Translations under genes and position numbers: made by a program
The notes under the pieces: model-generated
Told to the model about the DNA's origin: nothing
Database searches by the model: none
The model's input: the letters and a program-made list of their open reading frames with translations, nothing else
Source of the DNA: Paenibacillus sp. 453mf
GTDB lineage: Bacteria > Bacillota > Bacilli > Paenibacillales > Paenibacillaceae
Assembly (NCBI RefSeq): GCF_900116105.1
Contig: NZ_FPAC01000001.1
Span: 424,862 to 488,861, forward strand
Length of the DNA: 64,000 bases
Reading direction: 5' to 3'
In this document: positions 9,377 to 44,671 of the stretch, piece by piece
Layout: each line of letters starts with the position of its first letter
Numbering within the stretch: position 1 is the stretch's first letter

Positions 9377-9862
9377 TTTTTGTATCTTCATAATCTATAT
9401 GGTTGTATTATGTGGATCATTATTTAAATTTGGAACAGGAGTGAATTACGAATCAGCAGTGGATTATTTTATTCAAAATTCAAACGCAATACCTTTCAAA
9501 ACAATATCATTCTATATTAGTTCTTACATGAATAATAGTATGAATAAAACTATTATCGTGGAAAATTTATTAGGTAACTTATTATTGTTTATTCCTATGG
9601 GAATTTTTTTATGATATTTATTCCGAAATTAACAAAATTGGAATATCTAATTTTTGCCGTTATGATATTTTTAGTAGAAATCATTCAATTGTTAACAAGA
9701 ACAGGTTTTTTTGATATAGATGATATTATTCTTAATCTAATCGGATTCCTTATCGGAGTGTCGATAATGAAATTGAAACTTGTAAACAAGGTTATTAATG
9801 GATTATTTATTCTTAGCACGATAAAAGTGGAGGAGTATGAGAAAAACAATAAGTTTTTTTGA
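9353..9862 (+). pseudogene. VanZ-family membrane protein, frameshifted
   Basis: Two frames together make one VanZ-like protein. The first half contains IYMVVLCGSLFKF, AIPFKTISFYIS and ENLLGNLLLFIPMGIF; the second, from about 9611, contains IFAVMIFLVEIIQLL and DIDDIILNLIGFLIG, the C-terminal VanZ signature. The break is at a run of seven T at 9605-9611; one more T would fuse the frames. Either a real disruption or a read error in the homopolymer. AAGGAGAGG at 9350-9358 is a good RBS but no standard start codon follows it closely. VanZ-like proteins are associated with glycopeptide or peptide-antibiotic tolerance. Confidence 0.65.
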
Positions 9863-10847
9863 CGTTTTAATTAGGCAACTCATTAGTGATATAAAGGTAA
9901 ATGTTGTAATAGTCTGTACTTTAACAATAACATTTACTTTTATATTTTTGGTTTCTACAGAATTCATTTCAAGAATTTCAGAATACGGTAAATTAAACGA
10001 AGGATTAAGAACTTATGAGATAAGATCCTTCTCCGAAAATTCTATAAGTGCATTTGATACTATTTTAAAAGAGTTCGAGAAAAAAAATATCGAGAAAATA
10101 ACATTCATCAATCTTACAGCAAATAAAAGTGAAGTTCCTTTTTTTAATATTTTTTTTAATAGTGATGAAAAAATATATTTGAATCCTGAGAATATGGAAA
10201 CAGAAATTTTGCTCGGTAGAGACTTTAGTGAGAAGGAAATCAGCAGTGGTGATAATGTTGTAATATTGAGTGAGAATGATTACTCTTTGTATTATAAAAA
10301 TTACAACATAGGTGATAATATCAAGATTGCAGACTATGATTTCGAACTTATTGGTATTAGCAATGATAATAATGAAAAGATTAGTTCAGTAATTCCTTTC
10401 AATACCTTAGTAAAGTTATCATCTGATAACAAAAATACATTTCATATTAACGAAGCCTTTATAACACTGAATGAAAGAATAAGCAAAAAGGAAATTCGAA
10501 ACTTAATAAAAGCAGCCAAAGAAAATCTTAATAATGTTGAGTATCATATTAACACTTCATCTTCATGGATGATTCTAAGTAAAATTGAAAATGTCAGAGG
10601 GATAATTTTTGCGACAATAACAATTATTGTGTTCTGTATTTTTAACATTATAAATTTGCTGAAAATATTGCACACCAGAAACAAATCAATAATGAAAATA
10701 TATAGAAATCTTGGTTATGAAGATAAATATATCGCTCTTACATTTGCTTCGGAAGTATTCATTTTGATAAGTATCTCGTGTACCTTGGGATTCTATTTCT
10801 ATGTTTTTTTTGATCCTATTATTAATGAAGAATTATTTATTCGGTGA
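9837..10847 (+). CDS. ABC transporter permease (MacB/FtsX-like), first subunit
   Basis: A 336-aa permease with one N-terminal membrane segment (about residues 20-42), a large extracytoplasmic domain resembling MacB_PCD (LLGRDFSEKEISSGDNVVILSE, then NIGDNIKIADYDFELIGI), and two or three C-terminal segments (about 258-280 and 305-330). This is short for a four-TM FtsX-type permease. It overlaps the end of the VanZ reading frame, has AGTGGAGG upstream, and is followed without a gap by a second permease and an ATPase. The three likely form a peptide or bacteriocin exporter or immunity pump. Its base composition is much more AT-rich than the flanking chromosome. Confidence 0.7.
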   Translation: MRKTISFFDVLIRQLISDIKVNVVIVCTLTITFTFIFLVSTEFISRISEYGKLNEGLRTYEIRSFSENSISAFDTILKEFEKKNIEKITFINLTANKSEVPFFNIFFNSDEKIYLNPENMETEILLGRDFSEKEISSGDNVVILSENDYSLYYKNYNIGDNIKIADYDFELIGISNDNNEKISSVIPFNTLVKLSSDNKNTFHINEAFITLNERISKKEIRNLIKAAKENLNNVEYHINTSSSWMILSKIENVRGIIFATITIIVFCIFNIINLLKILHTRNKSIMKIYRNLGYEDKYIALTFASEVFILISISCTLGFYFYVFFDPIINEELFIR

Positions 10848-10858
10848 AGAGGGGAACG

Positions 10859-12037
10859 ATGATTAAAAAACTTGAATTTACAAAGATTTATATAAGAAAC
10901 AGCAAAAAAAAATATGTTTACCACATACTTGAACTACTCATTCTTTTTTTGATTTTCCATATTGTATTCTATCAATTTCAGGAAACTAAACAAATAAAAC
11001 AAACATTGGAAAATATAAAAGCAAGTGAACTTTACCGAGCAGTTTATAAAGTTGAAAATATAAATAGCTTAGATGTAGAGTTAGATAATCTTCAGAAGAA
11101 CCTTCCAATGGGATTAGAATTAATTTCTCCAATTAAAAACACTGCTTTTACTGATCAAACTTATAAAAGCAAACAAGTTACTTTAAATCTTCTATCGCTA
11201 AGTGAGGCTATACAATACAGTTATCCTGTTTCTATAGGTGAAGAATTTAATTTGGATTGGGCACAACAAGATCTTTATCAAGCTATCATACCTAAAGAAT
11301 TAAGTGCGAAATATCAAATTGGGAAAGAGTATGAGATAGCTATCAAAAAAAATCTAGATACTTTAACATCTATAAAGGTAAAAGTAATAGGCTATCGTCA
11401 TAGTAACTATATTCTAGATTCATCTCAAGCAAGTGACAATATCTTTAAGAGAGATACAACCATGTTAGTATTCGATAACATTGGGAAACTATCTAGAGAA
11501 TTCTACGCGGAAATGAATGGATCAATTCCTGTGATTCTAAAGAAAGATAATCTTTCGGGAGAATCTCTAAATTCTTTGTTAGACGAGAGTAATTTAAATA
11601 ATATAAAAAATCTTGAAGAAAGTATACTTGAACTAACCGAATTAAAATTCAGCGACATTGACCTATATATGACTTTATTATTTGTAATTATTCCTCTAAT
11701 TATAGTGTCATTAGCAAGTTTCTATTATCTGGAATATCAAAATAAGAAGAGAGAATATATCATTTATATAGCTACGGGATTGTCACCACAATTCTTATTT
11801 CAGTCCACATTAATTTTGAACGCAATAGTATTTATTTTCCCTGTACTTTTGCAAGAAATTGTTTGGTATATCATTTGTTTAGCTCGGGATTATGAATTTA
11901 TATGGCGACAAAGTGTCACTATAATTATCATTTCAATACTCACAACTACATTAATTACATTCATAAATACTTATTTTATTAGTAAGATAAACTACAATGT
12001 TAAAACCTTAGACAAGGAGATAACTGGTGAAGAATAG
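10859..12037 (+). CDS. ABC transporter permease (bacteriocin-associated type), second subunit
   Basis: An integral membrane protein with an N-terminal segment (about residues 18-36), an extracytoplasmic domain of about 240 aa and three C-terminal segments (LYMTLLFVIIPLIIVSLASF; LFQSTLILNAIVFIFPVLL; VTIIIISILTTTLITFI). The arrangement resembles FtsX-like permeases and the bacteriocin-associated membrane proteins of the lactococcin-972 group. The ATG at 10859 is preceded by GAAGAGGGG and is preferred to a GTG at 10844 that overlaps the upstream stop. It ends inside the start of the ATPase gene, so the genes are translationally coupled. Confidence 0.7.
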   Translation: MIKKLEFTKIYIRNSKKKYVYHILELLILFLIFHIVFYQFQETKQIKQTLENIKASELYRAVYKVENINSLDVELDNLQKNLPMGLELISPIKNTAFTDQTYKSKQVTLNLLSLSEAIQYSYPVSIGEEFNLDWAQQDLYQAIIPKELSAKYQIGKEYEIAIKKNLDTLTSIKVKVIGYRHSNYILDSSQASDNIFKRDTTMLVFDNIGKLSREFYAEMNGSIPVILKKDNLSGESLNSLLDESNLNNIKNLEESILELTELKFSDIDLYMTLLFVIIPLIIVSLASFYYLEYQNKKREYIIYIATGLSPQFLFQSTLILNAIVFIFPVLLQEIVWYIICLARDYEFIWRQSVTIIIISILTTTLITFINTYFISKINYNVKTLDKEITGEE

Positions 12038-12701
12038 TGATATTATCGTTCTTAAAAACATAACAAAAAGATATGGTGAGCATGAGCTTGCATTAGATAA
12101 TATAAATCTTTCTATTAAACACGGAGAAATGATTGCAATTGTAGGCGAGTCCGGTTCTGGTAAGTCTACATTATTAAATATCATAGCCGGAAATATAAAA
12201 AAATACTCTGGTTCCTATTTGTTCGAAGGGAAAGAATTTAATGCTTTCTCAAAAAAACAAATCGCTGAAATAAAAAATAAAGGAATAGGGTATATTTTAC
12301 AAGATTTTGGATTGATAGAAGACTTATCTGTCTTTAATAATGTCAAATTACCCTTATTGTTCAATTACAACGTTAAAATGGATCAGATTAGAAACATGGT
12401 TCTTAATGTATTGAATAGAGTTTATATACCTAAATACATTGACAAAAAAGTAAAGAATCTTTCTGGTGGTGAAAAGCAAAGAGTTGCTATAGCAAGAGCT
12501 ATAGTTAATGAACCGCTACTCATTATTGCGGATGAACCGACTGGAGCTCTTGACTCTTCGAATACTGTGAAAATCATGGAATTGATACAGAAAATAAATA
12601 AAGACGAAGGTGTTACATTTATTATTGCAACACATGATAACTATGTTGCCGATTTATGTAACAGAGTTATAGTAATTCAAGATGGTAAAATAGTTGGTTA
12701 A
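12027..12701 (+). CDS. ABC transporter ATP-binding protein (LolD/MacB-like)
   Basis: A 224-aa ATPase with Walker A GESGSGKST at about residues 38-46, Q-loop YILQDFGL, signature LSGGEKQRVAIARA, Walker B LLIIADEPTGALD and the switch histidine in ATHD. It energises the two permeases encoded just upstream; the substrate is likely a peptide or lipid-linked compound, inferred only from family. The GTG start has AAGGAGATAACTG before it and overlaps the permease stop by 11 bases. Confidence 0.88.
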   Translation: MKNSDIIVLKNITKRYGEHELALDNINLSIKHGEMIAIVGESGSGKSTLLNIIAGNIKKYSGSYLFEGKEFNAFSKKQIAEIKNKGIGYILQDFGLIEDLSVFNNVKLPLLFNYNVKMDQIRNMVLNVLNRVYIPKYIDKKVKNLSGGEKQRVAIARAIVNEPLLIIADEPTGALDSSNTVKIMELIQKINKDEGVTFIIATHDNYVADLCNRVIVIQDGKIVG

Positions 12702-12972: not shown

Positions 12973-13020
12973 GCTCAAGGTTCTCGGGTTCGTGAATACG
13001 AGAGACGTTATGTGAAACCT
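12973..13020 (+). repeat. Cassette-site element A (right half only)
   Basis: CTCAAGGTTCTCGGG, then TTCGTGAATACGAGAG and ACGTTATGTGAAACC match the right half of the elements downstream: L'-like CGTGAATA at 12991-12998 and R'-like GTTATGT at 13007-13013. The left half with TATTCACG is missing, so this may be the truncated first site of the array. Confidence 0.7.
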
Positions 13021-13064
13021 CCGCAAGGGATTAAGAACAAATTAGAAACAAGGAGAGACGTATA

Positions 13065-13541
13065 ATGAAAAGACTAATATTTATTACAGTTCTAATCCTT
13101 TTTATTAACGGATGCAGTAAAGAAGTGAAATTACAATTATTTGAAACGAAAGATCAAGCAATAAAACAATATATTGAGGAACAAAATGTAATGGAGTCTT
13201 TTCTCGAGTTAGATTTAGTTACAAACGAGACAATCGTTCTTATCAAACAGGAAAGGGAGATATATTCTTTAGCCGAATTAGCAAATTCAAAAGACAACAA
13301 GTACTCATTTTCTAGAATTTCCGCTTGGGTTGATATTGGGAATACAACAGGAGCAATGTGGGAATTTAAAACTAATACAGATAATGTATATACCTTAAAA
13401 ATATCAAAGAAACAAGAAGATCCTGATTCTATATATAATAATGATTTTGACATTTATATTTCAATAGTCAACGGGAAAAGGACATATAATGACTACAATG
13501 TAAGGAATATTATAACTTCAACCAAATTGATAGATATCTAG
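13065..13541 (+). CDS. Small lipoprotein of unknown function (cassette 1)
   Basis: A 158-aa protein with a short signal peptide (MKRLIFITVLILFINGC) and lipobox INGC, so it is likely lipidated at Cys17 and exported. The rest is polar, with no recognised domain. The ATG follows AAGGAGAGACGTATA. The gene sits alone between element A and element B. Confidence 0.6.
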   Translation: MKRLIFITVLILFINGCSKEVKLQLFETKDQAIKQYIEEQNVMESFLELDLVTNETIVLIKQEREIYSLAELANSKDNKYSFSRISAWVDIGNTTGAMWEFKTNTDNVYTLKISKKQEDPDSIYNNDFDIYISIVNGKRTYNDYNVRNIITSTKLIDI

Positions 13542-13555
13542 TATTGCTCTGAAGG

Positions 13556-13740
13556 CGGAGACATCTTATAACACTATATTCACGTTGCAGGCCGACTGGC
13601 GCCGTCCCTTGGTCCACCCGAGGCATTTCGAGAAGCTGAGTGAGGCGGACAACCCTGCGAACCTAACCGCAGTCGCGGCCGGCAGCTGAAACTGCCTTAA
13701 GGTTCTCGAGTTCGTGAATACGGGAACGTTATCTGAAACC
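13556..13740 (+). repeat. Cassette-site element B
   Basis: Left edge: GAGACATCTTATAAC with R''-like TTATAAC, then TATTCACG at 13579-13586. Right edge: CGTGAATA at 13713-13720 and R'-like GTTATCT at 13728-13734. Inside, GAACC at 13659-13663 can pair with GGTTC at 13701-13705, and GGCAG/CTGCC forms a terminal hairpin just before TTAAGG. Confidence 0.75.
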
Positions 13741-13770
13741 GGTGGAAATCTCTAAAAAGGAATGAAACCA

Positions 13771-14219
13771 ATGAAAAATAATGTTACTTTAATCGAACCA
13801 TCGTTTCAATACAAAGATGAATATTTAGATATGGTGTCAGAGTGGAAGAATTCAGGGGAAAAGCTTATTCCTTGGGCTTTACGATTCGATAGTACTAATT
13901 TTCAATCAATGATTGATGAACTTACTAGATTAAGAAATGATACAGATCTGGAAGAGAATAAGGTAAATAGATCGACTTTCTGGTTAGCAAATCAAGATAG
14001 AAGGTTGTTAGGCGTAGTAAATATTCGACATAGACTTAATAATAATCTATTACATATTGGTGGCCACATTGGATATGGAGTAAGACCTAGCGAAAGACGG
14101 ATAAGGACAATATTGGATCTGCAAAAACAATAATAAATAACAATGGAGTATTGGATTCAGAAGCAATCATTAATGAAATTGAAATACAAAGATATTGGAT
14201 TGAAATTAAGAACTCTTGA
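13771..14219 (+). pseudogene. GNAT acetyltransferase with internal deletion (cassette 2)
   Basis: The N-terminal part reads as a RimJ/RimL-like GNAT enzyme up to HIGYGVRPSERR, where the acetyl-CoA loop should follow (RRKGYA in relatives). Sequence then jumps, out of frame, to the C-terminal part NIGSAKTIINNNGVL ... IEIQRYWIEIK. About 30 residues including the cofactor-binding helix are missing, and the frames differ, so the gene is dead. The deletion is internal and leaves both flanking sites intact. The start at 13771 has AAGGA eight bases upstream. Confidence 0.75.
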
Positions 14220-14223
14220 TTGT

Positions 14224-14446
14224 AACTCGAAGAAGGCACAAGCATCAGATAACGCTATATTCACGCTTCGGGCCATTCGGCCCTCGGTCCGGCAGAGGTC
14301 CGATGTGGATTCGATGAGACATTGTAGCTGCAGGGAAGTATTTTTAGCCGGACACACCCGTACCACCTAACCGCATTGCGTCCGGCACCTTAGGTGCCTT
14401 AAGGTGGTGGGGCGTCGTGAATACAAGAACGTTATGTGAAATCAGC
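14224..14446 (+). repeat. Cassette-site element C
   Basis: Starts with AACTCGAAGAAGG directly after the cassette stop. R''-like CAGATAAC ends at 14252; TATTCACG follows. Inner pairs: GTCCGGC (14287-14293) with GCCGGAC (14347-14353); ACCACC (14362-14367) with GGTGGT (14403-14408); terminal hairpin GGCACC/GGTGCC. Right edge CGTGAATA and R'-like GTTATGT at 14431-14437, then GAAATCAGC. Confidence 0.8.
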
Positions 14447-14473
14447 TTAAATAAGAGAGAAAGAGTGAGATAG

Positions 14474-14971
14474 ATGATTCAAAGCAGATATTTATTTGTA
14501 TCTCGTACAGGCAAAGTTATAAAGATCGCCCGACCTAAAGATCATAAGCATAAAGCTGTTCCTCAATTAGCAGGTGAGGAAGTACTTGAAGTGATCTTAT
14601 ACTACAGGAATAAAGACAGGAAGCCGCATAAACTACTTATGGTGGAATTTGATAGATTCCATTTAGATCCGGACGGAAATTATAAACAGACAGAAGAAGA
14701 TAGAAAAAGAGCTATTCATAATTTTCTTTCTTTTGGGATGGCTGATTTGCATGAAAGAATAGAAGTAGAAGATAAGCCACTACCTATACCTGTTGCGCCG
14801 ATAATTCCGACGACTGCTGAGAAAAAATCATTATACGATTACATAAATGTGAAACTACCCAGTTTTTCAGATGATGCTCCTTATGTAGTAGAAAGTAAAA
14901 TTATAGCTGCTAAAGAGAAATATGAAGAGTTTAAAAGCATGGTAAAGAAATCAAACAAGCTGTCTAAGTAG
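14474..14971 (+). CDS. Hypothetical protein (cassette 3)
   Basis: 165 aa, charged, with no signal peptide or membrane segment. The first 100 residues look like a compact alpha/beta domain (EVLEVILYYRNKDRKPHKLL); a Pro-rich linker (KPLPIPVAPIIPTT) joins it to a C-terminal Lys/Glu-rich helix. I do not recognise the family. It is the only ORF between elements C and D. Confidence 0.6.
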   Translation: MIQSRYLFVSRTGKVIKIARPKDHKHKAVPQLAGEEVLEVILYYRNKDRKPHKLLMVEFDRFHLDPDGNYKQTEEDRKRAIHNFLSFGMADLHERIEVEDKPLPIPVAPIIPTTAEKKSLYDYINVKLPSFSDDAPYVVESKIIAAKEKYEEFKSMVKKSNKLSK

Positions 14972-15195
14972 TTCGAAGAAGAAGCAGACATCACATAACA
15001 TAATATTCACGCATCGAATCGCAAGTGATCCTTGGTCCGCCAGAAGCGTTAAGAAGCATAATCACAACAGAGTATTTTCAGTTGCAGAGTAGTTAATTCA
15101 GACGGACACATCCTGCGAGGCTAAGTCTTCGACCCGGCAGCAGAGCTGGCCTTAAGCCTCTCGGTGTCGTGAACACGGAAACGTTAGACGAAATA
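14972..15195 (+). repeat. Cassette-site element D
   Basis: Left edge: GTTCGAAGAAG, then GACATCACATAAC ending at 14999 and ATATTCACGC. Inner pairs: GTCCGCC (15035-15041) with GACGGAC (15101-15107, one mismatch); GAGGC (15117-15121) with GCCTC (15156-15160). Right edge: TCGTGAACAC and R'-like GTTAGAC at 15183-15189, which fits the integron consensus GTTRRRY exactly. Confidence 0.8.
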
Positions 15196-15226
15196 CACCT
15201 AAAACACAAGATAAGGAGAAGAAAAT

Positions 15227-16108
15227 ATGTCGGAATATCAACTAATCAAAAATTATAAAGATCAAGAGAATTACAGATTAAGTTTTAACCATTTAGCCAA
15301 TCAAATATTTGGAATTGATTTTGAGAATTGGTATCAAAAAAGCTGCTGGAATGATCGGTACATCTGTTACTCATTTCTTCATAGCGATAAGGTAATTGCA
15401 AATCTTTCTGTTAGTTTTATGGATATTATTCTTAATAACCAAGTTTACTCAGCCATTCAGATAGGTACAGTGATGACCGATCCTGAATATCGTAATCAAG
15501 GACTTTCAAGAAGATTGATGGAGATTGTCATGGAAGAATACCAGACAAGATATAGTTTTATATATTTATATGCAAATAAATCGGTATTAAACTTTTATAC
15601 GAAATTCGGTTTTAAGAAAGTTATTGAACCTAGTTATTCATTAAAACTTACTGTTACAAGTACAGATAAAACCAAGATTCGAAAAATGGATATTTCTACC
15701 AAAGAAGATTGGGAACTACTGATGGAACTGAATTCAGCGAGAAGGCCCATCTCTAATAAATGCGGAATTATGAACGCTGAAGGTATATTTTCTTGGTACT
15801 GTTTGAATATATTTTATGACGATATATATCTTATCACGGACTTAAAAACGGTCATTATTTATCAGCAAGAAGGTAATTTACTACATTTGTATGATGTAGT
15901 ATCCATCAAAGAAGTTAGATTAAATGAATTGATTGAAATGATTCCAATAGAAGGAGTAAGTAAAGTTTTGGTTCATTTTAAACCAGATGAAGAGAATGAA
16001 AAGTACATTAGTAAATTTTATGTTGAACCTGATGATACACTTTTTATCTATCCGGTAAGTGAGAGGATTCATTCAGACATGAAACTTCCAAAAATCGCTC
16101 AAGCGTAA
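15227..16108 (+). CDS. GNAT family N-acetyltransferase, two-domain (cassette 4)
   Basis: 293 aa. Residues of about 1-145 form a GNAT domain: IQIGTVMTDPEYRNQGLSRRL contains the acetyl-CoA-binding motif (R/Q-x-x-G-x-G/A; here RNQGLS), followed by LYANKSVLNFYTKFGFKK. The remaining 145 residues are a second domain with little resemblance to a GNAT fold; it may be a degenerate GNAT or sterol-carrier-like domain, as in Eis-type acetyltransferases. The substrate is unknown. RBS AAGGAGAAG is six or seven bases before the ATG. Confidence 0.8.
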   Translation: MSEYQLIKNYKDQENYRLSFNHLANQIFGIDFENWYQKSCWNDRYICYSFLHSDKVIANLSVSFMDIILNNQVYSAIQIGTVMTDPEYRNQGLSRRLMEIVMEEYQTRYSFIYLYANKSVLNFYTKFGFKKVIEPSYSLKLTVTSTDKTKIRKMDISTKEDWELLMELNSARRPISNKCGIMNAEGIFSWYCLNIFYDDIYLITDLKTVIIYQQEGNLLHLYDVVSIKEVRLNELIEMIPIEGVSKVLVHFKPDEENEKYISKFYVEPDDTLFIYPVSERIHSDMKLPKIAQA

Positions 16109-16109
16109 T

Positions 16110-16298
16110 CAAGGTAAGATATGTACTAACACCGTATTTACGCGTCGGGTCGGCATTCGCCGACCCTCGGTCCGCCCGAGGCATTTCTAGAAGTGGATTC
16201 AGGCGGACAACCCTGCGAGTCTAACTGCCAAGCGCAGCCGGCACTTTGTGCCTTAAGACAGACTCTCGGGTTACACAAACGTTATGAGAAATCAGCGG
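16110..16298 (+). repeat. Cassette-site element E
   Basis: R''-like GTACTAAC ends at 16130. Inner hairpin GGGTCGGC/GCCGACCC; GTCCGCC (16170-16176) pairs with GGCGGAC (16202-16208); GAGTC (16217-16221) with GACTC (16261-16265). The L' region is altered (GGTTACACAAAC instead of TTCGTGAATAC). R'-like GTTATGA at 16281-16287, followed by GAAATCAGC. Confidence 0.75.
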
Positions 16299-16314
16299 AC
16301 AAACAATAACAGAG

Positions 16315-16665
16315 GTGAATACAATAAAGGTCATAACACTATGTGGATCAACAAAATTTAAGAAAGAATTTGAACAAACGAATAGATACTTAACCCTTAA
16401 AGGAAATATTGTTATTAGTTTAGCTTTTTTTGAGCAAAGCGAAGGAATTGAAATTACCAAGGAACAGGCAGAATTATTTGAAGAAATCCATTTTCGTAAA
16501 ATTGATATGTCAGATGAAATATTTGTTATCGATGTTGGCGGTTACATCGGTAGGAGCACAAGAAAAGAAATTGAATATGCAATTGAAAATGGGAAGATAG
16601 TTAAGTTCTATTCAAAAAGCGAATTAGTAAAACACGACAAGACAAAAGAATTAATACTGGAATAA
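16315..16665 (+). CDS. DUF4406 / nucleoside 2-deoxyribosyltransferase-like protein (cassette 5)
   Basis: 116 aa starting at GTG (AGAGGTGAAT context). VITLCGSTKFKKEFEQ at the N-terminus, IVISLAFFEQ, and MSDEIFVIDVGGYIGRSTRKE at the middle form the Rossmann-like fold of the 2-deoxyribosyltransferase superfamily, common in phages and on mobile DNA. It may handle nucleosides or nucleotides; activity is not proven by the sequence. Confidence 0.75.
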   Translation: MNTIKVITLCGSTKFKKEFEQTNRYLTLKGNIVISLAFFEQSEGIEITKEQAELFEEIHFRKIDMSDEIFVIDVGGYIGRSTRKEIEYAIENGKIVKFYSKSELVKHDKTKELILE

Positions 16666-16676
16666 TATTGGTGGTA

Positions 16677-16871
16677 GTTCAAAGAAGTAGCTGACATCTC
16701 ATAACATCATATCTACGCTTCGGGCCGAACGGCCATAGGTTCGTAAGAAGCGGTATGCTATGAAGTGAGTTCAGCTCACAACCCTGCGAGGCTAAGTCTG
16801 CCGGACCCGGTCGCGTGCGCTCCCTTAAGCCCCTCGGGTTCGTAGATACAACAACGTTAGATGAAATGGCC
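16677..16871 (+). repeat. Cassette-site element F
   Basis: Left edge: GTTCAAAGAAG, GCTGACATCTCATAAC ending at 16705, then ATCTACGCTTCGGGCC with the GGCC/GGCC hairpin. CCCTGCGAGGCTAAG is conserved; the pairing arm before TTAAGCC is partly kept (GAGG with CCTC). The L' box has diverged (TTCGTAGATAC). R'-like GTTAGAT at 16856-16862 fits GTTRRRY and is identical to classic mobile-integron R' sites. Confidence 0.75.
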
Positions 16872-16898
16872 TAAAGACATGTAAAGGACGAAAGATCA

Positions 16899-17294
16899 AT
16901 GAAAATGTCATTTGTTATTAATGGAGATAACTTCTCCGATTATCAGGGATTTACAAGAGAATTCTCGTTACAAGTGTTATCAAATAAATATATTTGGAAT
17001 GGCAGTTTAGATGCATTAAACGACATTCTTCGAGGCGGATTTGGTGATATTGATGAAGATGATAAACTTGAGATAACTTGGAAGAATTCTGATAAGTCAA
17101 TTATTGAATTAGGTTACGAAGAGACCATAAAACGATTGAATGAAAAATATGAAAAATGCCATCCAACAAATAAGGAATTTATATTACAAGAAATTATCCA
17201 TGCTAAGAACAATAAAGGGCCAACAGTATTTGATTGGATAGTAGAAATAATAAATGAACACGAAAATAAAAACATTACATTAAAACTTGAATAA
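16899..17294 (+). CDS. Barstar-like protein (cassette 6)
   Basis: 131 aa. The stretch LDALNDILRGGFG followed by LEITWKNSDKS is typical of barstar-family ribonuclease inhibitors, where the DxLxDxL helix and the W-x-x-S strand form the RNase-binding face. It would neutralise a barnase-like RNase toxin; no such toxin gene is in the window. The last 40 residues are beyond the core barstar length. RBS AAAGGACG lies upstream of the ATG. Confidence 0.75.
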   Translation: MKMSFVINGDNFSDYQGFTREFSLQVLSNKYIWNGSLDALNDILRGGFGDIDEDDKLEITWKNSDKSIIELGYEETIKRLNEKYEKCHPTNKEFILQEIIHAKNNKGPTVFDWIVEIINEHENKNITLKLE

Positions 17295-17308
17295 ACGATA
17301 ATGATTGT

Positions 17309-17470
17309 TAACTCAAAGAAGAGTACACTTTATCTAACACCGTATCCACGCATCGTGGCATTCGCCGACCCTCGGTCCGCCAGAGGAATTTGTGGCGGAG
17401 CCACCCGGCGACTTCGTCGCCTTAAGCCTCTCGGGTTCGTGAATACAAGAACGTTATAGGAAATCAGCCT
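17309..17470 (+). repeat. Cassette-site element G (shortest complete site)
   Basis: AACTCAAAGAAG follows the ORF stop. R''-like ATCTAAC at 17332-17338 fits the integron consensus RYYYAAC exactly; then GTATCCACGC. Inside are TCCGCC/GGCGGA and the hairpin GGCGAC-TTC-GTCGCC. Right edge TTCGTGAATAC and R'-like GTTATAG at 17453-17459, then GAAATCAGCC. From R'' to R' it is 128 nt, having lost the arm that carries CCTGCGA. Confidence 0.8.
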
Positions 17471-17498
17471 AAGTTAAAATCAATTATTCGGGAGCTCA

Positions 17499-17867
17499 AT
17501 GGAGCGAAAATACCAAGAAATACGAGAATATACCGACCAAGAAATTAAAGAAATTCAAGAAAGGCAAGTAATAGATGAACTGATTTTATTGCCCCTTTCT
17601 GTGGGGATGTACCATCATAATTGGAGAATTGCTCAAAACCTATGCTTAGAACTAGCTCAACATGAAATTGCTCATGTTAGAGCAAATGCAGTATTTGGAT
17701 TGGCCCATATTGCAAGGACAAAGGGAGAACTTGAAAAAAGAGTAGTAAAACCCATTGTACTAAAGGAATTAAGGCATAATGAAGAATATAGAGGAACGAT
17801 AATAGATGCAATAAGTGATATAAACCTATTTTGGAATTGGAAGTTAGCGAAGAAGCATGATTTATAG
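17499..17867 (+). CDS. HEAT-repeat-like helical protein (cassette 7)
   Basis: 122 aa with alternating amphipathic helices: NWRIAQNLCLELAQHEIAHVRANAVFGLAHIAR resembles paired helices of HEAT repeats. Small HEAT-like proteins often act as immunity or adaptor proteins, but nothing here names a partner. The ATG at 17499 follows CGGGAGCTCA. Confidence 0.6.
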   Translation: MERKYQEIREYTDQEIKEIQERQVIDELILLPLSVGMYHHNWRIAQNLCLELAQHEIAHVRANAVFGLAHIARTKGELEKRVVKPIVLKELRHNEEYRGTIIDAISDINLFWNWKLAKKHDL

Positions 17868-17869
17868 AT

Positions 17870-18066
17870 AACTCAAAGAAGTGCTGACATCCTATAACAT
17901 TATATTCACGCTTCAGGCCTGACGGCCTTCGGTCTCGCTAGAAGCGACCGGCAGGGAAGCAGATTCAGCGGACACATTCGCACCGACTAACCGCATCGCG
18001 GCCAGTCACTTCATGACCTTAAGTCGGTGGGACGTCGTGAATACCGAAACGTTATGTGAAAGACCT
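17870..18066 (+). repeat. Cassette-site element H
   Basis: AACTCAAAGAAG then GCTGACATCCTATAAC (R''-like CTATAAC ends 17898) and TATTCACGCTTC. CACCGAC (17981-17987) pairs with GTCGGTG (18023-18029); terminal hairpin GTCA/TGAC; GTCTCGCT can pair with AGCGGAC with one bulge. Right edge GTCGTGAATAC and R'-like GTTATGT at 18051-18057. Confidence 0.8.
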
Positions 18067-18106
18067 GCCACAAAAGATTTGAAAGTAACTCAGTCGCAAC
18101 GTCCTG

Positions 18107-18729
18107 TTGCTTGATGAATATAAAATTGGTCAAAATGTCAGAAATACGTTAAGATCTTATAGCTTGGGGGATGTTCTCTTGGACAAAAAGAATAAAGAGC
18201 AAGACATTCAAAGGTTATACAAAGCACAAAAGTTGGCGTTATATTGGTTACTGGGAATTGTTTATTCAGGATTTATAGGATTGCAGCTTGGTAGGAATCA
18301 GGCTATTGCAGATTTTAATTATAATCTCCATGAATTAATGTTCATCCCTTATAATATTGCTTTATTTGTCTCACCTGTTGTGTTCCTAATCTATATTTAT
18401 TTATTGGTAAAATACCTATTTAAAAGTGGGAAACAAAAGCTAAATTTTAAAAAAGGAATTAAAGCAACCCTAATAATAACTTCTTTCGTCGTTATAATTT
18501 CTATAACAACTTACCAATCTTTTGAGGTGTCAACTTCTGGAGTATTTGAAGTAGAAGAAAAAATTCATAAGGATCGGAGATATTATTTATTACTAAACGA
18601 AAAAAATTAAGGGTATCTTTTAATGAATTTCAATTAGTTGAAGAGAAAAAACAATATTTAATTAGTTTTGTTTGGAATAAACAGACTCCAAACAAGGGAT
18701 GGCTTGAAACTATTGAACCAATAAAATAA
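18107..18729 (+). pseudogene. Two-TM membrane protein, frameshifted near its end (cassette 8)
   Basis: The frame from TTG 18107 has membrane segments at about residues 45-65 (LALYWLLGIVYSGFIGLQL), 85-110 and 125-147 (ATLIITSFVVIISITTYQ) and stops at 18610 after LLLNEKN. The other frame continues LRVSFNEFQLVEEKKQYLISF ... WLETIEPIK to 18729. The shift is at a run of A at 18600-18606, so a one-base indel (real or sequencing) splits a protein of about 207 aa. The family is not recognised. The start is uncertain: no strong RBS precedes TTG 18107. Confidence 0.55.
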
Positions 18730-18785
18730 AAATCTAAAAAACATATGAGAGCCGACGTCCTGTCTCTATTCGAGGAAGCGTGACC

Positions 18786-19001
18786 GGTCCATCAGATAAA
18801 ATAACAAAGAGCGTTCACGCTGCGGGTCGGCATGCGTCGGCCCTTGGTCGCATTAGAAGCCGAAAGCAAAGAAGCAGATTCAAGCGACAACCCCTGCGCC
18901 GCCTAAGTCTTCGACCCAGCACTACTCGAGCCTAAGATAGGAGCTATCTAAGGCTCGAGCAGCACCTTAAGGCATGGTGGGTAAGGTTATCTGAAATGAC
19001 C
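18786..19001 (+). repeat. Cassette-site element I, with an inserted terminator-like hairpin
   Basis: Left: ATAAC at 18800-18804 then GTTCACGCTGCGGGTCGGC with GCGTCGGCCC. GTCGC-TT at 18847-18854 pairs with AAGCGAC at 18882-18888. CCTGCGCCGCCTAAG is followed by the hairpin CTCGAGCCTAAGATAG / CTATCTAAGGCTCGAG (18925-18959, one mismatch). The L' box is lost (GGTGGGTAAG) but R'-like GTTATCT at 18986-18992 and GAAATGACC remain. Confidence 0.7.
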
Positions 19002-19021
19002 TACAAAGGAGTAAAAATAAT

Positions 19022-19570
19022 ATGAAAAGCCCTGATTTCAGTTTATGGAAAAGTACACTATTGAATCATTTTAGAAATAATCTCGAGGAATTTGCAACAA
19101 CAACTGAAAATAAAGAAGTGTATGCGGTGATATTGGACTGCCATGCTACATATGGGAGTGTAAATATGAAGTGGAATACCGTAGATTCGTTTAAAAAGTA
19201 TGTGGAAAAATACTATAGCTCATATACTTCTCATGAATTACTCGGATCTAGGGGAGTTGAATACAATGTAGGAGATTTTTCATACGAAGATTCGAAACAA
19301 CCAGAAGAAATAAATAAATTTGAGCACTTGTATGAAACAATACTTTCAAAATATATTGATAGAGAAGATGAAGAATCATCGAATGAATTAACTCAAAAGT
19401 TTATCAATACTCTAGTTGAAATAATCAATGAACTTACCCCGACCTTTTCCAGACTCAATAAGACTGATAACTTTATTTCATTTGTTGTAGAACATGACTC
19501 TGATTACTATGAATACATAAATAGGAATGTAACATTAGAAGACTATTATAAAGCTTTTCCTGAAGTTTAA
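19022..19570 (+). CDS. DUF4303-like protein (cassette 9)
   Basis: 182 aa. The N-terminal KEVYAVILDCHATYGSVNMKWNT pattern and the C-terminal FVVEHDSDYYEYI are like DUF4303 proteins, which often sit beside polymorphic toxins as presumed immunity proteins. No toxin gene is nearby. RBS AAAGGAG is eight bases before the ATG. Confidence 0.55.
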   Translation: MKSPDFSLWKSTLLNHFRNNLEEFATTTENKEVYAVILDCHATYGSVNMKWNTVDSFKKYVEKYYSSYTSHELLGSRGVEYNVGDFSYEDSKQPEEINKFEHLYETILSKYIDREDEESSNELTQKFINTLVEIINELTPTFSRLNKTDNFISFVVEHDSDYYEYINRNVTLEDYYKAFPEV

Positions 19571-19578
19571 GAATATGA

Positions 19579-20070
19579 TCAATATCTAAGCAATATATTT
19601 ATTTATTATCAGATGAAGAACAAGTTACCCATTGGTGTAATTTATTACGAGAACTTGTAGTTGGAAACGATACAGATGAAATAAGATCATTTAAACAAAT
19701 GAACCGAAATAAGCATGATGTGGTGGATGAAATTAAAAAATTGGGAGTAATTGCGGCAAGTAAAGTAGTTACACTTTTTGAGGTGTTTTCCGGATATATT
19801 CCATCAGTGGATGGCATATTTATTCGAAGCGAGAGTCATACTCGATGGATGTTCTTGAAAATTATAATAGATATTAAAAATGCAGATATGGAGACAATTA
19901 ATCGATTAAAGAAAATACTTATAAGAAAGTATGAAATAGATAATGAAATACAAGAATGTATAAATATTGCAAGGACTCTTCATGCTCTTGATTCATCACG
20001 TTTTCCTAAAGAGGTTCATGATGAAAATAGACTTAGATTATTAAACTTTGAAGAATACAAGAACAAGTAG
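19579..20070 (+). pseudogene. Open frame without a start codon, hypothetical (5' end lost)
   Basis: The frame is open from 19579 to 20070; protein-like sequence begins at about 19600 (LLSDEEQVTHWCNLLRELVVG) but the first ATG is at 19699. No ATG, GTG or TTG with an RBS precedes the coherent sequence, and no site element separates it from the DUF4303-like gene. The 5' end was probably removed. The conserved-looking core is EIKKLGVIAASKVVTLFEVF; the family is not recognised. Confidence 0.45.
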
Positions 20071-20637
20071 TAAATCGAAGCAGTTGGTCATCTCAGATTA
20101 TGCACTGGATCCTAGCGACTCCTTAATCCCACCAGATGAGATCGGTAGGGATGCCAAATCAGGATATTATTAAAGGATGTCGAATGATTATTAGTCCAAG
20201 ATACGAAGGCCGATGAGTTCCCTGGGAGAGAGCCATTATATCCTCATAGGGCTGAAAAGCGTTTAGGTAAAGCTAAGATAATAAAGGTATTAAATGAAGA
20301 GTGAAAAACGGTTGGGTAACTTAAGATACTTTTGTCTAATAAACATATTCCTTTTTATAGAGAAGCCCCTTGTTCCGTACTAGGATTCAATAACTAACAT
20401 TCTACAATTCAGTACTTGAAGTCGATAGAGTCTATCCATTCCACTTAGTAATTCAGTATACAAGGTTTATGTCTATAGGTAGTGGTGATCGATATGCTCT
20501 CTGCTCTCTATTCAATGAATTCACTATATAATGGGGTATAATAAGAATCATTAAATAAAAGGGATACAGACCTAAAACGTGAACTTGAAAATAAAGTCAG
20601 ATTTTCAAGTGTAGCAGAAACATATATAAATGACAGC
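20071..20637. other. 567-nt stretch without a gene; probably decayed cassettes
   Basis: Short fragments such as CATCTCAGATTATGC and CCACCAGATGAGATCGG resemble site-element pieces out of order (compare GACATCTCATAAC), and CCTGGGAGAGAGCC near 20220 may be remnant coding sequence. I see no intact ORF, RNA gene or complete site. Confidence 0.35.
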
Positions 20638-44290: not shown

Positions 44291-44551
44291 CTCCTCTTTC
44301 GCTAAAGTGAAATAAGCGGACAATCTATATGCATGAGTATGATTGTAAATAGCAATCTATTAATCAGGACCCCATCCGTTTAACTAAACATGATTCGACA
44401 ATCATTTATAATTTTTATCGAGATTTCAAGTGAAATATAGTCTTATAGTATTAAAAAAACAGTGAAAAAAACCGATTAGAAAAAGTGAACACTAGTTTAC
44501 TTTTAGTTGTGGTAAGCTTAGGTAGTTCTTAAGTACTATCTGTAAATTGAA

Positions 44552-44630
44552 TACGTGGCAAAGCTGTTGAAAAGCAGTGACGCAAAGCTAGAGGGACTAC
44601 TTCCGTAAGGAAATGTCAGCCAGTTGCTTG
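44552..44630 (+). ncRNA. Cyclic-di-GMP-I (GEMM) riboswitch
   Basis: GTGACGCAAAGCTAGAGGG, then CTTCCGTAAGGAA and ATGTCAGCCAGTTGC follow the GEMM-I core: ACGCAAAGC, the P2 tetraloop arm and the closing arm with CAGCCAGNUGC. It lies in the leader of the chemotaxis receptor gene and directly before a terminator hairpin, so c-di-GMP probably controls read-through into 44789-50292. 44291-44551 contains no gene. Confidence 0.9.
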
Positions 44631-44671
44631 AATGAGCCATGGCCTTATTTTGTCCATAGGTTCATTTTTTT
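44631..44671 (+). terminator. Expression-platform terminator of the riboswitch
   Basis: AATGAGCCATGG pairs with CCATAGGTTCATT, followed by seven T. It begins immediately after the aptamer, allowing a competing fold. Confidence 0.8.

Follow-up and report, generated by a model that had tools for sequence, protein, structure and literature searches.

Can genes be captured in the manner of an integron by an array that has no integrase beside it? This question is raised by a stretch of 64,000 nucleotides (nt) from the chromosome of Paenibacillus sp. 453mf (contig NZ_FPAC01000001.1, positions 424,862 to 488,861; hereafter the window), which carries an array of structured, attC-like elements. The original prediction, made from the sequence alone, described nine same-strand copies of one element that separate open reading frames (ORFs) at spacings of 575-1098 nt, without an integrase in sight; the elements were found at those places, and no recombinase match was obtained in the window at E 1. 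We read the window as holding a chromosomal integron-type cassette array, the units of which are likely excised and inserted at G/TT by a tyrosine recombinase that lacks the domain specific to the integron integrase IntI (the patch), and we put the probability of this reading at about 0.92. Given that the sites covary and are arrayed, and that arrays of the same type in relatives lie beside a recombinase gene, integron-like gene capture is likely. For the family, the best reading is integron-type gene capture with a non-IntI integrase, widespread in Paenibacillaceae, with recombination that we infer from the comparison of genomes.

Site structure, register and movement of units

Seven elements of the window are complete (137-206 nt each), not eight as first counted, e1 being a right half and e9 degenerate. 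In their predicted branched fold, 16 of 35 consensus pairs show a double compensatory change. Across 150 elements from the source and related genomes, changes on both sides of a pair were found in 638 cells, compared with 195.5 in shuffles, and none of 500 shuffles was as high. A covariance model built from the seven complete elements (R1) scored 97-165 bits for these, 41 bits for e9 and 12.7 bits for e1. As the original prediction had proposed, Paenibacillus genomes were searched with such a model, and the element was found throughout the genus and family: R1 sites occur in 74/75 genus genomes, and sites of a second model, R2, in 217/295 family genomes (17/19 genera) and in 45/398 genomes (18/145 genera) of a class sample. 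These counts are lower bounds, with 37, 9 and 7 best candidates scored per genome, respectively. A covarying, branched, intergenic structure in nearly every genome of the genus would also suit repeats of structured RNA or DNA, whether regulatory leaders or mobile intergenic repeats, that spread among genes without any role in moving them. We consider this extremely improbable, since an independent repeat would bring both of its edges, whereas in these arrays the left edge of an element matches the right edge of its predecessor. Rfam gave no match to the window elements at gathering scores; at E 10 there were just two matches, both outside the elements.

Bigger branched sites than those of integrons had been predicted and do occur, the longest measuring 227 nt (locus L197), but they represent one form among several: the inner lengths of 466 elements with both cores cluster at 80-89, 100-109, 140-159 and 170-189 nt. 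The L boxes pair over 8 bp and are complementary at 7 or more of the 8 positions in 418 of the 466. In 369 of these 418 the left and right spacers measure (4,7), (3,6) or (2,5) nt, the right one being 3 nt longer. The available text of PMC4792948 states that the IntI-specific domain recognises extrahelical bases of attC; to judge from the sites themselves, the 3-nt asymmetry could be a candidate strand-polarity signal replacing the bulged bases that IntI reads.

The final bases of an integron site are already part of the following cassette, so that R'' complements the R' that starts the same cassette, i.e., the right edge of the previous site. The elements of the window follow this register. 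Out of 72 letters, their left edges match the right edges of the preceding elements at 64, compared with 54 for the right edges of the same elements, and 64 is reached by 24 of 40320 permutations. A 150-site profile applied to 80 integrase loci, 20 fetched stretches and the source-genome arrays gave 568 matches, which merged into 556 elements. All three variable letters were complementary to the previous site at 320 of 403 junctions and to the own site in 45 of 465 elements, while shuffled edges gave a mean of 22.8 and a maximum of 40 (1000 shuffles). Complementarity extends outward, holding at positions 12-18 for 0.51-0.88 of junctions versus ~0.3 when own or shuffled edges are compared; positions 10-11 are constantly mismatched. 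In the predicted circle, 9 bp form between the left and the right R box, and the fixed 2-nt mismatch and 7 further cassette-specific pairs follow. The register across junctions implies that each unit has two mutually pairing ends, as expected of a circle opened at G/TT. Window cassettes 1, 2, 3, 5, 6 and 7 fit the register at 8-11 of 12 positions, compared with 4-6 for their own edges.

Movement of units was assessed by comparing arrays. Among 441 cassettes cut from arrays, the array strand carries the longest frame in 376 and the opposite strand in 65; the 364 cassettes kept have a median length of 788 nt and a median ORF of 185 residues. Full-length matches between loci comprised 105 pairs, 96 of which were less than 99.5% identical. 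Because some loci share one genome, pairs at or above this identity were dropped from the comparisons of neighbours and ends. Both neighbours differed in 38 of the 96 pairs, one differed and the other was unknown in 42, one was shared in 6, and neither was known in 10. In the 66 pairs of at least 85% identity, ungapped identity falls from 0.87 within the first 40 cassette nt to 0.31 upstream of G/TT, and from 0.72 within the last 40 nt to 0.34 downstream; a similar neighbour was present in 10 of them.

Nowhere else in the genus was the window array recovered as a block (75 genomes, 4 best stretches scored per genome). Pieces of it were matched in 54 of the 75 genomes, the source included, and among the matches listed in other genomes the span is at most ~1.1 kb, that is, one cassette or one site. 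The cassette 3 gene with its left site edge is 98% identical in genomes G026 and G063, and cassette 3 recurs in G020 at 87-92% and in G060 at 75%. Cassette 9 was found as a unit (from behind the ninth R' to 20072-20098), 79-86% identical, in G006, G010, G011, G021 and G067. Its recurrence, together with an R'' remnant, places the end of the array at ~20101, so that the array (13007 to ~20101) is slightly longer than the predicted 12973..19001. Genome comparison shows that whole units with ends at G/TT have been gained, lost and reordered; units differ between species, and ORF order varies in the arrays compared. Nor do the site edges move independently of the ORFs, as the repeats considered above would: the gene travels with the site edges, and cassettes common to several species retain these ends in most cases next to changed neighbours. 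The interior of a site can differ between copies of one cassette, as seen for one site in two copies, which is the further point in favour of such repeats.

The recombinase at the head of related arrays

No recombinase match was found beside the other two arrays of the source genome either, the recombinases of which lie elsewhere. Of the 29 R1 sites in this genome, the window holds 8, and the others form groups of 18 (C9:1877487-1891501) and 3 (C9:1679425-1680818). Its 19 matches to TIGR02249, the model of canonical IntI, all fall below the cut-off. The recombinases of the source genome were rejected as array integrases: none adjoins an array, and the two examined score best against XerC, below its cut-off.

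In relatives, a recombinase takes the expected place. Twenty array stretches were fetched from 19 genus genomes, and in 12 of them a tyrosine recombinase gene lies upstream of the sites on the same strand; at E 1e-40, an integrase was matched in 53 of 75 genus genomes. Named genomes were also scanned and yielded 80 integrase loci (the best 80 of 437), 57 of which we assign, by title, to Paenibacillaceae. Sites lie downstream of the integrase in 50 of these 57 loci, and the remaining 7 contigs have less than 750 nt after the gene. In the 57 loci, 354 sites are downstream on the recombinase strand, 9 upstream and 2 on the opposite strand, beginning at an attI-like site; this placement likewise argues against repeats that spread on their own. 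The contig of L164 breaks inside the integrase gene, and those of L170, L171, L180 and L199 break within ~180 nt after it, perhaps because of the repetitive arrays that follow. Two integrase homes recur (L098, L095, L107 and L102 versus L093, L088, L100, L094, L091 and L090), one behind a radical-SAM/B12-type gene and the other behind a chemotaxis-receptor gene, both genes named by eye.

Carriage by plasmids or viruses was considered and rejected; the matches comprise 525 plasmid records (none at 60% identity or above, the best-ranked at 40.5%), 18 phage records (none at 60%) and 26 viral contigs (the best-ranked at 40%). With regard to LexA control of the integrase, no conserved SOS box was found; an SOS-type box, allowed up to 2 mismatches, lies upstream in 9 of 70 loci (L169 and L224 scanned off-position), and 6 of the 9 matches overlap an apparent ribosome-binding site.

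The integrase stop is followed, ahead of the first cassette, by an attI-like sequence, TATTTACGAAGTTCGTAAATAAGACGTTA or a related form, which shares the L box of the attC-like sites of the arrays. In 45 of 50 loci of relatives, at least 9 of 12 positions of its right half fit the R'' of the first cassette, and the five non-fitting loci score 4, 4, 5, 8 and 8; control R'' from other loci, placed at the same attI, score 4.9-6.8 on average. One of the 45 fitting loci, L217, has an attC right half instead of attI. A 20-nt dyad is present at -24 in 31 of the 45 loci, and at both -24 and -60 in 19. The large array of the source genome begins with an attI of the same type (12/12 fit); at the head of the window array stands the half site e1, not an attI.

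The identity of the recombinase was examined with two array-type proteins. They score 197.8 and 202.5 bits against the NCBIfam integron-integrase model (cut-off 265), and 214.6 and 217.8 bits against NF040815, just short of its cut-off of 220. The best solved relative by sequence is IntI4 of V. cholerae (2a3v, E 9.1e-37); the alignment falls into two blocks, separated by 18 residues in the array recombinase and 60 in IntI4. The same structure ranks first by Foldseek E-value (1.3e-15) for a predicted model with a mean pLDDT of 82 and a pTM of 0.52. The spacing from GKG to HxxRHSF is 103-104 residues in all 15 IntI sampled, compared with 63 in 69 of 81 rows of the array recombinase family and 64 in 4; outliers of 59, 65 and 26 occur once each, and 5 rows are unmeasurable, with a broken frame or a different motif. 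The original prediction had suggested looking near other arrays for a tyrosine recombinase with an IntI-like patch; the recombinase is there, and the patch is not. An N-terminal extra stretch of ~95 residues has no Pfam match. R224, K249, H314, R317, H340 and Y349 are invariant in 41 recombinase proteins and are expected to be catalytic. In a tree of 64 proteins, IntI formed one clade (100/100) and the patchless proteins fell on the other side (87/87). The tree holds only 15 IntI, from a Shewanella-phage IntI search, together with long Xer branches and a modest support for the patchless side; the patchless proteins may be older than IntI. In PMC9668308, the IntI-specific domain is called a defining trait and necessary for integron recombination. 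To judge from its sequence, the array recombinase is not an integron integrase by this published definition.

An ordinary integron, with a canonical IntI that is absent from the assembly or located elsewhere, would explain the attC box order, and the literature offers it some ground: the available parts of one review (PMC8618304) list Firmicutes among the phyla with integrons, and those of the IntegronFinder 2.0 paper (PMC9024848) report for Firmicutes one complete integron (Limnochorda pilosa) and a few clusters of attC sites without an integrase (CALINs), which may include some sites of the Paenibacillaceae type. We judge this explanation very improbable. No canonical IntI scored above the TIGR02249 cut-off in any of 290 Paenibacillaceae genomes (7 best candidates scored per genome), a non-IntI recombinase occupies the expected place in relatives, and the L box is common to the attI there and these attC sites. 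L239, the one continuous TIGR02249 match listed in the family, was set aside as XerD-like; it adjoins what is presumably a phosphopentomutase gene. The predicted cassette system, integron-like, new or divergent and with boundaries at G/TT, is supported by the register, the ends of the units and the recombinase of relatives.

Several observations weigh against a patchless recombinase moving these cassettes. The lead of IntI is narrow, the XerC-like 4a8e following at E 1.1e-35, and TM-scores of ~0.5 are common to several families; moreover, the IntI domain, said in the available text of PMC9668308 to be needed for integron recombination, is absent. The source genome gives no match to the array-head integrase at E 1e-40, nor do 22 of the 75 genus genomes, although all but one of the 75 have sites, and 8 of the 20 fetched stretches lack a recombinase match at E 1e-3. 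The 12 array-head recombinase genes comprise 3 of full length (371 residues, 371 within a longer frame, and 379), 1 shortened and 8 broken. In addition, 83 of 403 junctions fail the fit of all three letters, and the junctions and cassette pairs include several loci per genome (e.g., L094 and L207), so that they are not independent. Cassette 4 is out of register, the left edge of e5 (16119-16130) fitting neither the previous nor its own right edge (4/12 each); being among the longest units, it may represent two cassettes fused after the loss of a site. Finally, the cassette 3 match in G020 extends into site e3, and cassette 3 (14432-15183) and its 98% relative L100 (G026) differ in the site interior, long branched versus short, as if the site inside had been exchanged.

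We propose that the recombinase would bind the L and R boxes of the folded single strand, cut the R box at G/TT, and join cassettes to attI or free them as circles; the 3-nt excess of the right spacer and the fixed 2-nt mismatch would set strand polarity. Arrays without a recombinase gene, such as that of the window, may be filled in trans, or the gene may since have been lost. On a wider scale, the balance tips slightly toward Firmicutes holding a second integron lineage, older than or independent of IntI, with a patchless integrase, large folded sites, a polarity given by the asymmetric spacer and an interrupted stem of 18 positions, and an exchange network reaching across Paenibacillaceae into Clostridia and perhaps Bacteroidota. 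If so, integron searches based on the patch would miss the second-lineage integrons of Firmicutes, a phylum in which integrons are treated as rare. A working patchless system across Paenibacillaceae would make the origin of integrons from Xer-type enzymes testable, bring to light a sizeable reservoir of mobile genes, so far unrecorded, in this family (including acetyltransferases, phosphotransferases and immunity-like proteins), and offer a recombination tool with new sites. Firmicutes (103 complete genomes at that time) are absent from the integron-carrier table of an older survey, in its available text (PMC2426708). A literature search with most subscription papers beyond its reach returned no account of Paenibacillus integrons or of a patchless integron, and priority is not proven.

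Content and surroundings of the array

The sites and cassettes of the window are collected in Table 1; the R' cores (GTTA) lie at 13007, 13728, 14431, 15183, 16281, 16856, 17453, 18051 and 18986.

Table 1. Sites and cassettes of the window array, with R1 scores and with the number of edge positions in register versus own fit.
Feature	Coordinates	Strand	Remarks
e1, attC-like right half (L' and R')	12973..13016	+	Left array end; R1 12.7 bits
Cassette 1	13008..13728	+	ORF 13065-13541, no Pfam match; between R' of e1 and e2; e1 R' fits cassette 1 R'' at 9/12, own 5
e2, attC-like site	13561..13738	+	R1 159.3 bits
Cassette 2	13729..14431	+	ORF 13762-14133, no Pfam match; register 9/12, own 5
e3, attC-like site	14242..14441	+	R1 163.9 bits
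Cassette 3	14432..15183	+	ORF 14474-14971; register 11/12, own 5
e4, attC-like site, long branched form	14988..15193	+	R1 151.7 bits
Cassette 4	15184..16281	+	ORF 15227-16108, GNAT acetyltransferase (Pfam Acetyltransf_9, E 1e-12); register 4/12, own 4
e5, attC-like site	16119..16291	+	R1 131.8 bits
Cassette 5	16282..16856	+	ORF 16315-16665, no Pfam match; register 10/12, own 6
e6, attC-like site	16694..16866	+	R1 161.8 bits
Cassette 6	16857..17453	+	ORF 16899-17294, barstar-like; register 8/12, own 4
e7, attC-like site	17327..17463	+	R1 97.1 bits
Cassette 7	17454..18051	+	ORF 17499-17867, weak HEAT-repeat match; register 10/12, own 4
e8, attC-like site	17887..18061	+	R1 165 bits
Cassette 8	18052..18986	+	ORF 18107-18610 (or start 18179), no Pfam match
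e9, attC-like site, degenerate	18794..18996	+	R1 41.3 bits
Cassette 9	18987..20101	+	ORFs 19022-19570 (DUF4303) and 19699-20070; right-hand site decayed

The barstar-like product of cassette 6 matches PF01337 at E 1e-4 with 22.6 bits, slightly below the Pfam cut-off of 23.4. For cassette 8, an R'' candidate with its end at 18800 agrees with the e8 R' at 9/12 and is the best position within 18740-18830. Inside the degenerate e9 lies a 19-nt inverted repeat, 89% complementary, at 18922-18962. The decayed R'' of cassette 9 fits the R' of e9 at 11/12, with a mean of 8.5 and a maximum of 11 for 300 shuffled R'; taken alone, this remnant is modest evidence for the right end of cassette 9. A first, badly spaced DNA pattern for the right edge was discarded, as it found e1 and two places with 2 mismatches, compared with 5 in the reversed control. 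Defence genes were sought among the window cassettes, and two weak matches were obtained, nothing more.

Directly left of the array is an ORF (12027-12701) that looks by eye like an ABC-transporter ATP-binding protein, preceded by two long ORFs (9837-12037). A c-di-GMP-I riboswitch aptamer is present at 44547-44631 (64.8 bits).

Across arrays, 139 of 317 distinct cassette proteins were scanned, with 25 of 112 families listed; these include GNAT PF00583 (13 proteins), NUDIX (8), glyoxalase (3), APH (2), SMI1_KNR4 (2) and barstar (2). Outside the family, 23 more distant integrase loci were examined, and 7 of them carry one or two rule-linked sites each; the 7 belong to a Bacillota metagenome-assembled genome (MAG), a Clostridiales MAG, Acididesulfobacillus, Natronincola, two Fusibacter and one Bacteroidia MAG. 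No such site appeared in the reversed-sequence controls (25 loci). This test is insensitive, given that L217, with 10 profile elements, has only 1 linked site. The sites of Fusibacter bizertensis are short and of classical look. The Bacteroidia MAG locus, L225, pairs a patchless recombinase with one rule-linked site downstream.

Comparison with known systems

The arrays share with integrons, above all the sedentary chromosomal ones, co-directional cassettes of one main gene, the site order R''-L''-L'-R', a G/TT boundary, and attC-type sites between cassettes whose R'' would pair, in the circle, with the R' that starts the same cassette. In relatives, an attI separates the integrase gene from the first cassette. 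Cassettes of GNAT and NUDIX type are common to both, and the nearest solved structure is, narrowly, an integron integrase. The differences concern, first, the recombinase, which lacks ~40 residues including the IntI patch and carries the N-terminal extra. In classical integrons the integrase gene and the array diverge, whereas in Paenibacillaceae they are co-directional. In integrons, moreover, attC recombines as a folded bottom strand to which extrahelical bases give guidance. The Paenibacillaceae sites are branched, with an outer, cassette-specific stem of 7 bp, and in 19 of the 45 loci the attI has dyad repeats at a distance of 36 nt. No conserved SOS box was found upstream of the integrase. 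The dyads recall the DR repeats of attI1 described in the available text of PMC8946536. All three arrays of the source genome, that of the window included, are clusters of attC-like sites without an integrase beside them and so resemble CALINs. The name of XerA/NF040815, "site-specific tyrosine recombinase/integron integrase", is given to some homologs and says nothing of cassette arrays.

The nearest system in plan, by its published description, is rAID of Bacteroidales, in which a predicted tyrosine recombinase heads co-oriented short genes with conserved intergenic motifs (PMC12247911, available text), as seen here in relatives. That the arrays belong with these recombinase-headed orphan-immunity arrays, and protect against competitors, is compatible with an integron-type mechanism; some cassettes are of barstar-like or SMI1/KNR4 type, the recombinase has relatives in Bacteroidia, and a link of L225 to rAID arrays is possible. 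The host phylum is another one, however, and the cassettes are mixed and not mainly immunity genes, GNAT and NUDIX leading among the 139 proteins scanned; we therefore regard membership in rAID as unlikely. The system of the window and its relatives would work like an integron, yet it does not belong to the integrons by the criterion of the IntI domain.

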